Shown here in pieces: positions 36,935 to 37,957 of a DNA stretch of 64,000 nt (within the stretch, counting starts at the first letter, position 1; every line of letters begins with the position of its first letter). The DNA comes from Haloferula helveola. Its GTDB lineage: Bacteria > Verrucomicrobiota > Verrucomicrobiia > Verrucomicrobiales > Akkermansiaceae. The notes beneath the pieces are model-generated. The model did no database searches. It saw only the letters and a program-made list of their open reading frames with translations, and was not told where the DNA came from. The stretch is from assembly GCF_037076345.1 (NCBI RefSeq), contig NZ_AP024702.1:4030001-4094000 (forward strand), in the 5' to 3' direction. The position numbers and the translations under genes are program-made.

Positions 36935-37126
36935 ATTGGGCCGGGTCCCTGGGGACCCCTTCCGGGCAGGCGCGGCAGACTAGGGAGCGGCCCCGGGCGA
37001 TGCAAATGCTTTTTCGCCGGAAAATGAAGAGGCGGAGGGACCTGCCCTCCGCCTCTTGAACATCTACTCAACGCGAACAGTCCAGATCACTTTCGAGCGT
37101 GACGCGGCTGTTTCGGGTTGGGGAAG

Positions 37127-37873
37127 TTATTTCTTTTTACGGGCCGTCTTTTTCTTGGCGGCCTTTTTCTTGGTCGCCTTCTTTGCTACCTTTTTCTTGG
37201 CGGCCTTCTTCTTGGCGGCCTTCTTCTTGGCTACCTTTTTCTTAGCAGCCTTCTTTTTGGCGACCTTCTTCTTTGCCACCTTTTTCTTGGCGGCCTTCTT
37301 CTTCGCTACCTTTTTCTTAGCGGCCTTCTTTTTGGCTGCCTTTTTCTTGGTGGCCTTCTTGGCTACCTTTTTCTTGGCGGCCTTCTTAGCCACCTTCTTC
37401 TTGGCAGCTTTCTTGGTGACCTTCTTGGCTACCTTTTTCTTGGTCGCCTTCTTCGCCACCTTTTTCTTGGCGGCCCGTTTCGTGGTTTTCTTTGCAGCCA
37501 TGGCTTTGTGTCGTTTGAGTTCGCGTTCGATGTTGGTTTTCTCTTCCGGCGTGAGATTGCCGGCGGAGAGCAGTGCGAGGATCGCCTCGCCGAGGCGCCC
37601 TCCAAAAGCGTTGGTCAGGAAGTCGGAAGTGGCTTCACGAAGGATGATCTCCTTCGGGTGGGCGGGCTCGTAGACATGGGCGCGTCCGCTGCGGACCCGT
37701 TTGACGAGCTTCTTGCGCTCGAGGCTCTGCATGACCGAGAGCACGGTCGTGTAGGCTCGGTCCTTCCCGTCGGGGAGGGCCTCAAGTACGTCACCCACCG
37801 TAGAAGGGCCCTCATGCCACAGGACGGAAAGCGCCTGGAGTTCGAGGTTCGAGGGATGTGAAGGAGTTGCCAT
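37127..37873 (-). CDS. BlaI/MecI-type repressor fused to a histone H1-like Lys/Ala tail
   Basis: 248 residues. The first 120 match BlaI/MecI/CopY winged-helix repressors: LELQALSVLWHEGPSTVGDV near 10, RAYTTVLSVMQSLERKKLVK near 39, RAHVYEP near 63, and a C-terminal dimerisation helix with FLTNAFGGRLGEAILALL near 84. From about residue 124 to the end the protein is a near-continuous series of AAKKK, VAKKK and ATKKK units, like the tail of histone H1 or bacterial Hc1/AlgP proteins. Typical BlaI ends near 125. No BlaR1-type sensor is nearby. A promoter and a 14-bp palindrome lie upstream (37898-37957). The tail should bind DNA without sequence preference. Confidence 0.85.
   Translation of the reverse strand: MATPSHPSNLELQALSVLWHEGPSTVGDVLEALPDGKDRAYTTVLSVMQSLERKKLVKRVRSGRAHVYEPAHPKEIILREATSDFLTNAFGGRLGEAILALLSAGNLTPEEKTNIERELKRHKAMAAKKTTKRAAKKKVAKKATKKKVAKKVTKKAAKKKVAKKAAKKKVAKKATKKKAAKKKAAKKKVAKKKAAKKKVAKKKVAKKKAAKKKVAKKKAAKKKAAKKKVAKKATKKKAAKKKTARKKK
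37130..37503 (-). repeat. 15-nt periodic low-complexity repeat encoding the Lys/Ala tail
   Basis: Plus-strand units such as TTCTTGGCGGCC and TTTTTCTTAGCAGCC recur every 15 bp over about 370 bp, giving five-residue AAKKK-type repeats on the minus strand. The units vary at synonymous positions, so selection is on the protein. Such tracts can change length by slippage or recombination. The Phe/Leu-rich frames on the other strand are shadows. Confidence 0.85.
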
Positions 37874-37897
37874 GGGAAGAACGCGATTGAAACAGTC

Positions 37898-37957
37898 ACT
37901 ATAAAGTTCGTACCGGCGGCGAACGTCAAGTTTAAATTGGCCAAAAAGTTAACTTTT
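37898..37957 (-). promoter_or_regulatory. promoter and palindromic operator of the BlaI-H1 gene
   Basis: On the minus strand a TTGACG (37924-37929) is followed by TTTATA (37900-37905, 18-nt spacer) or TATAGT (37898-37903, 20-nt spacer), 25 bases before the start codon. Just upstream lies a perfect 14-bp palindrome AAAAGTTAACTTTT (37944-37957), suited to a dimeric regulator, possibly autoregulation. It does not match the MecI consensus ACTACATATGTAGT. Confidence 0.55.

Follow-up and report, generated by a model that had tools for sequence, protein, structure and literature searches.

In the 64,000-nucleotide stretch of Haloferula helveola DNA analysed here (the window), a gene for a BlaI-type repressor runs in frame into a histone H1-like tail, and an H1-like gene is probably nested in the same frame, starting at codon 125 of blaI, whichever transcript carries it. 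Two genes would thus share one frame at the locus (Table 1). The outer gene would encode a BlaI-type repressor reading through into the H1-like tail, and the inner gene, with its start at an internal ATG (codon 125), only the H1-like protein. Two conserved RNA hairpins occupy part of the final third of the BlaI-coding sequence, and the internal start would lie beneath them in a leader that is A/C-rich and without structure. A single mRNA would then most likely yield a tail-bearing, sequence-specific repressor and a separate, general DNA-binding H1-like protein, with the repressor probably controlling its own promoter and hence the mRNA for both products.

The tail appears primarily to be an autonomous H1-like protein, given the conserved Met at the junction, the structured RNA leader and a free homologous gene in one genus; a nested H1-like gene would account for the Met, the codon constraint, the hairpins, their joint loss and the free copies. 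The cell probably uses the fused repressor as well, since the in-frame reading has been kept and genes with Leu at position 125 retain a short basic tail. From these sequence features, we infer internal initiation at codon 125, DNA binding by both products, a role for the hairpins and autoregulation. The initial annotation had read the locus as a repressor whose tail could let it act as a local silencer. Its fusion is real and conserved, with an open frame, but the tail looks autonomous and the leader of the nested gene had been missed; a repressor with a silencer tail would be at most one of two products.

Table 1. Positions of the features of the blaI-H1 locus within the window
Feature	Coordinates	Strand	Evidence
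Full ORF: BlaI-type repressor with in-frame histone H1-like tail	37127..37873	-	ATG start, 248 aa
BlaI/MecI/CopY winged-helix and dimerisation domain, residues 1-124	37502..37873	-	PF03965 match, PDB sequence matches
Proposed nested H1-like Lys/Ala gene, internal ATG at codon 125, 124 aa, start MAAKK	37127..37501	-	Junction Met, free homologues in another genus
Promoter-like region of the whole gene, TTGACG at 37924-37929	37895..37930	-	Upstream alignment, 74 sequences
Strongest synonymous conservation, codons 89-132	37478..37609	-	Codon-shuffle test
Leader hairpin 1	37577..37602	-	RNAalifold, covariation/shuffle test
Leader hairpin 2	37540..37569	-	RNAalifold, covariation/shuffle test; like-shaped hairpin before free H1-like genes
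Open A/C-rich leader, 38 nt, abutting the internal ATG	37502..37539	-	Unpaired probability, base composition

Domain structure of the fused protein

Residues 8-120 matched the Pfam family Penicillinase_R (PF03965) over profile positions 2-114 of 115, at 83.2 bits with a curated cut-off of 22.6. This whole-domain match places the window protein in the BlaI/MecI/CopY family, as had been proposed for its first ~120 residues. PDB sequence matches to the domain were 2g9w (which we take to be the Mycobacterium tuberculosis protein BlaI/Rv1846c), 2k4b and 1sd4, the Staphylococcus aureus penicillinase repressor. The Asn-Phe pair of 1sd4, presumably the BlaR1 cleavage site, aligns to Ala-Leu in the window protein.

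The proposed Lys/Ala histone H1-like tail was borne out by composition, residues 125-248 being almost entirely Lys and Ala plus some Val, Thr and Arg. Its match to the Pfam profile for histone H1-like HC2 proteins (PF07382) was weak (E 0.038 in the protein search), scoring 14.5 bits as protein and 35.9 bits in the genome search, below the curated cut-off of 40 in both. A long antisense open frame (37118-37861, + strand) is a likely by-product of the Lys/Ala codons and was not taken as a gene. A second BlaI-type protein, which is tail-less, is encoded elsewhere in the same genome (G000:C1:539918-540253, + strand, locus L001).

Conservation of the fusion across relatives

An ortholog with an open frame of 250-305 codons was present in all 18 genomes of the same genus (the window's own included), with 81-89% domain identity for the other 17. 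Homologue searches found 507 sequences, and in all of the 120 listed the junction Met was followed by a basic tail or at least by its beginning. The tail was at least 60 aa long in 114 of these 120 and 10-55 aa in the remaining six, of which at least one, P0017, departs from the repeat early. A scan of genome contigs gave 206 confirmed stretches, the best 80 of which serve as the named loci; their titles include Haloferula, Luteolibacter and Roseibacillus, together with many MAGs labelled Akkermansiaceae, Verrucomicrobiaceae, Prosthecobacter or Akkermansia. In all of these best 80 loci the frame is open past the junction. The domain was matched in 45 of 57 relatives searched (own genome counted) and, in a sample of the class, in 104 of 285 genomes, many of them solely through distant BlaI proteins. 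Genus g3 is absent among these 104 genomes; we assume that g3 may be Akkermansia itself, which would fit this absence.

The fusion is therefore conserved and maintained, and is due neither to chance nor to assembly error. That the tail arises from a frameshift or from faulty assembly at residue 124, the doubt raised with the initial annotation, is ruled out by conservation of the fusion in the genus genomes, the named loci and the listed homologues. An operon of unfused BlaI and H1 genes was also sought, and no K-rich ORF was seen in the fetched stretches of 11 loci of the class (L153-L163).

More distantly, 11 of 13 genomes searched in family f3 gave a match. Eight f3 loci were of the right kind, with differing linker peptides and DNA that is A/C-rich by eye before MA[AV]KKK. 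BlaI and tail are in frame in seven of the eight; in the other (G044) the BlaI frame is shifted and the tail ORF is intact, where a sequencing error is possible. The R1 covariance model of the leader element had no match in these eight loci.

Since the frame stays open through the junction in the 80 named loci and the fusion is conserved, a tail-bearing repressor is plausible. The same open frames, in the named loci and in seven of eight f3 loci, would suit a gene that makes the full-length protein only, with Met125 an ordinary linker residue and a tail that adds non-specific DNA affinity or local compaction. The short basic tail still present in the Leu125 clade agrees with such a protein, as do the Lys/Ala tails on other proteins of the family, e.g. 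DksA-like and RpoD-like ones. We nevertheless consider this explanation unlikely: it accounts for the open frame only. It gives no reason for the constraint on synonymous sites or for the hairpins, for a Met that is conserved and is lost together with them, or for the existence of free H1-like genes, all described below.

Synonymous constraint around the junction Met

The junction residue is Met in 75 and Leu in 5 of the named loci (best 80 of 206), one of the Met loci (L115) stopping at the junction with its contig. A codon-shuffle test, in which synonymous codons were permuted within each gene and excess codon identity was taken in 10-codon windows, was anchored on the junction Met in 74 loci plus the window; one sequence with below 60% identity was dropped and 74 were kept, so that Met is found in all 74 by construction. 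The excess was 0.35-0.45 throughout codons 89-132 and 0.00-0.23 over codons 1-88 (about codons 74-75 left out). Within the latter, a second, smaller peak of 0.23 lies at codons 40-49, and conservation is low (0.02-0.10) over codons 54-88, the rise beginning at hairpin 1.

Among 15 sequences from the genus, the best 20-codon window of blaI-H1 starts at codon 109 and reaches 0.464. Best windows of six neighbouring control genes were 0.284, 0.308, 0.189, 0.127, 0.174 and 0.175 (8, 14, 15, 15, 15 and 13 sequences, respectively). Part of the excess is gene-wide, because the first codons of blaI-H1 already lie at 0.08-0.25 in the 15 genus genomes versus control-gene means of 0.04-0.09.

A clear Shine-Dalgarno sequence was not seen before the internal ATG in the window's genus. 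One gene, in G031, has lost the Met (Lys125) and retained a long tail. A conserved internal start codon with leader signals of its own, as looked for in internal in-frame starts, is present, within limits set by circularity and by the covariation data given below.

A two-hairpin RNA leader

RNAalifold placed two hairpins at the element with an energy of -23.74 kcal/mol, of which covariation contributes a small share (-1.03), and gave 0.0 kcal/mol in 51-codon windows starting at codons 1-43. Over the 74 sequences, which also served to derive the structure and are thus biased towards it, 97.7% of cells pair, compared with 48-59% when partners are slid by 1-3 columns. The covariation score exceeds that of all 500 shuffles. 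Cells with both sides changed number 22, also above 500 of 500 shuffles, with slid versions reaching up to 23; pairs with both sides changed number 3, which is no excess over shuffles (165 of 500), with slid versions reaching up to 5. At pair 66-75, where both positions are synonymous sites, C-G occurs 45 times, U-A 16, U-G 7, A-U 1 and G-C 1. A DNA operator at this site is disfavoured and an RNA preferred, because the wobble variants read as G-U on the sense strand, whereas on the opposite strand they would be A-C.

The stretch of 38 nt from hairpin 2 to the ATG is open and rich in A and C. Averaged around codon 125, the unpaired probability is 0.62 compared with a median of 0.27 over 130 codons, and codon 125 is among the ten most open codons in 45 of 73 genes; in the same 73 genes the A/C content of the internal start region is 0.77 versus 0.55. 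No Rfam family matches the element.

Met125 and Leu125 genes compared

Out of 18 pairs, 13-18 are formed in the Met125 genes (80 unique sequences), a count that is partly circular because the structure was derived from 74 of those 80. Ten further Met125 rows (six unique) that were not used for deriving the structure form 14-18. Leu125 genes form 7-11 pairs (five unique sequences, all of one clade and so close to one event), and the Lys125 gene of G031 forms 11. The Leu125 genes have kept the BlaI domain, and their tails are short (about 25-36 aa).

Searched over 57 genomes, the R1 covariance model matched 25, once in each at blaI-H1 or its ortholog, plus one free gene (in G026); the matches at blaI reflect protein conservation too. 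On Leu125 loci, R1 scored 26.0 bits at L125, 19.2 at L126 and 16.1 at L127/L148, with no match in L129 or L130/L149. The score of L125 exceeds the 23.9 bits of the G026 free-gene leader.

Free H1-like genes in genus g10

A strict search with the tail-start pattern matched 29 of 117 genomes of the family, finding the nested sites along with DksA-like, RpoD-like and other Lys/Ala-tailed proteins. Free genes, K/A/P-rich and 58-98 aa long, were found in genus g10 only. Ten g10 genomes were examined: two have Met (G026 with a long tail and G359 with a tail of ~54 aa), five Leu and one Arg, and two are without an ortholog at E <= 1e-20. The free gene is present in seven of the ten (G026, G270, G296, G342, G348, G353 and G381), including all five with Leu125; the strict pattern did not find it in G359 or in G375 (Arg125).

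Folded singly, the seven free-gene leaders each show a hairpin shaped like hairpin 2 with different stem bases, followed by an A/C-rich stretch and ATG GCC GCA AAR AAA. Alignment was possible for six of them, the record of G381 being too short, and RNAalifold gives the same picture for these six. G026 carries both forms of the gene, and its free-gene leader is the sole R1 match outside blaI in the 57 genomes (E 0.089, 23.9 bits, ending at the ATG). By blastn, its free and nested copies align across the ORF and the ~15 nt of leader next to it, with 74% identity and an E value of 5e-25 that is inflated by low complexity.

Upstream regions of the free copies bear TTGAC boxes of their own, which would suit a variant of the nested-gene reading in which the inner gene is read from a promoter inside blaI as a separate transcript. 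This variant takes a minor share of the likelihood that we give to the nested gene. Codon conservation of just 0.02-0.10 over codons 54-88, rising at hairpin 1, argues against it. A scan for consensus sigma-70 promoters also found no site inside blaI, but the scan is insensitive, since it reported none at the gene's own promoter either.

The leaders bear as well on the idea that the element serves another task: it might act in the processing or stability of the mRNA, be bound by a protein for autoregulation, or make ribosomes pause ahead of the lysine-rich stretch. That hairpin 2 ends 38 nt before the ATG, with no clear Shine-Dalgarno sequence before it and no Rfam match, would be in keeping with such a task. 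Hairpins and Met have been lost jointly, however, and the hairpin and A/C-rich leader recur ahead of H1-like genes that stand free, without BlaI upstream; we regard this explanation as highly improbable.

A block, AATTCCTAGAATTCTAGTACTTTGATGTTGAC, is conserved about 250-400 nt before the free-gene ATG in five g10 genomes, with a variant in G026 (example loci L269, L270, L273, L267 and L282), and is a candidate promoter or operator of the free H1-like genes. An operator shared by blaI and the free genes in g10 was considered and dropped, no convincing common motif being seen.

Promoter and gene neighbourhood

The region taken to be the promoter of blaI-H1, TTGACG included, shows conservation in an alignment of 74 sequences. 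In many of these relatives a near-palindrome, AACTA-C-TAGTT, lies over the presumed -10, and the window's copy is degenerate. Because BlaI proteins from Clostridium thermocellum use repeats to bind the promoters of their own genes, according to PMC8457756, autorepression of blaI-H1 seems a fair inference.

Pfam identified the neighbouring genes as transglutaminase-like, thioredoxin-like, LysM and TatD, and a tRNA-Val lies just downstream of the gene in the window. Of 20 relative loci fetched, some of them truncated by the end of a contig, 17 have the thioredoxin-like gene upstream, 16 LysM, 16 TatD, and 13 the transglutaminase-like gene downstream. No BlaR1 was found by Pfam among the four neighbouring genes, in agreement with the initial annotation, and the locus lacks the adjacent BlaR1 of a BlaI-BlaR1 system over these genes.

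Relation to known systems

The window protein resembles BlaI/MecI/CopY repressors (PF03965) in its whole-domain profile match and in the small near-palindrome that relatives have at their own promoters, and differs from them in its H1-like extension with a predicted nested start. Extracts of PMC2848022 describe Hc2-like proteins in Bordetella and Burkholderia, and those of PMC9239181 describe Pseudomonas AlgP with its histone H1-like Lys/Ala-rich repeats. The tail is like these proteins and chlamydial Hc2 (PF07382) in having Lys/Ala-rich histone H1-like repeats of variable length. Unlike chlamydial Hc2, it falls below the Pfam cut-off and is encoded inside another gene.

Internal in-frame starts that give two polypeptides are described for phage endolysins (PMC9430671), Cas11b (PMC11899642) and SpaO (PMC13059759). 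As in those genes, a full-length protein would be accompanied by a C-terminal product from an internal start, the second product being a prediction here. The locus differs from those genes in that its C-terminal part amounts to a whole H1-like protein, also encoded by a free gene, and in that a conserved RNA with two hairpins forms the leader. The initial annotation knew of no description of the architecture as a system, and none of the nested BlaI-H1 arrangement was found in the excerpts consulted from the open-licence PMC literature, including PMC6426960. What would be new, relative to these excerpts, is the product pair, a structured leader, and a genus in which the gene occurs both nested and free; genes with an internal start and two products are already known.

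If the reading is true, an H1-like nucleoid protein of an Akkermansia-related family, whose members carrying the locus are environmental bacteria, has so far been annotated as a low-complexity tail on a transcription factor. One transcript would link the repression of specific genes to the general packaging of DNA, and an RNA element without an Rfam match would be added. Since the nested gene also occurs free within one genus, the order of events would be testable. A more speculative extension, which we hold to be possible but doubtful, is a two-output chromatin switch: an autoregulated mRNA would give a tail-guided repressor and free H1 for the bulk nucleoid, in a ratio set by a new class of structured RNA leader that perhaps senses free H1 protein or growth state.

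Other Lys/Ala-tailed proteins

An HC2 search of nine genomes matched, among others, Lys/Ala-tailed RpoD-like proteins and unassignable stretches, and is therefore no clean finder of free H1 genes. In the window's own genome, outside the window, a DksA/TraR-type zinc-finger protein (by Pfam) has an N-terminal Lys/Ala H1-like tail (G000:C1:4142235, + strand, L199), with similar sequences in G014 (L200), G016 (L248) and G342 (L271). Long N-terminal Lys/Ala tails were also seen in genera g9, g12 and g15 (L202, L205 and L262-L266) on what we take, from their sequence, to be RpoD-like sigma factors. Three further small proteins (L255, L260 and L261) combine a Lys/Ala-rich N-terminus with a short conserved C-terminal domain, presumably DUF2934-like.
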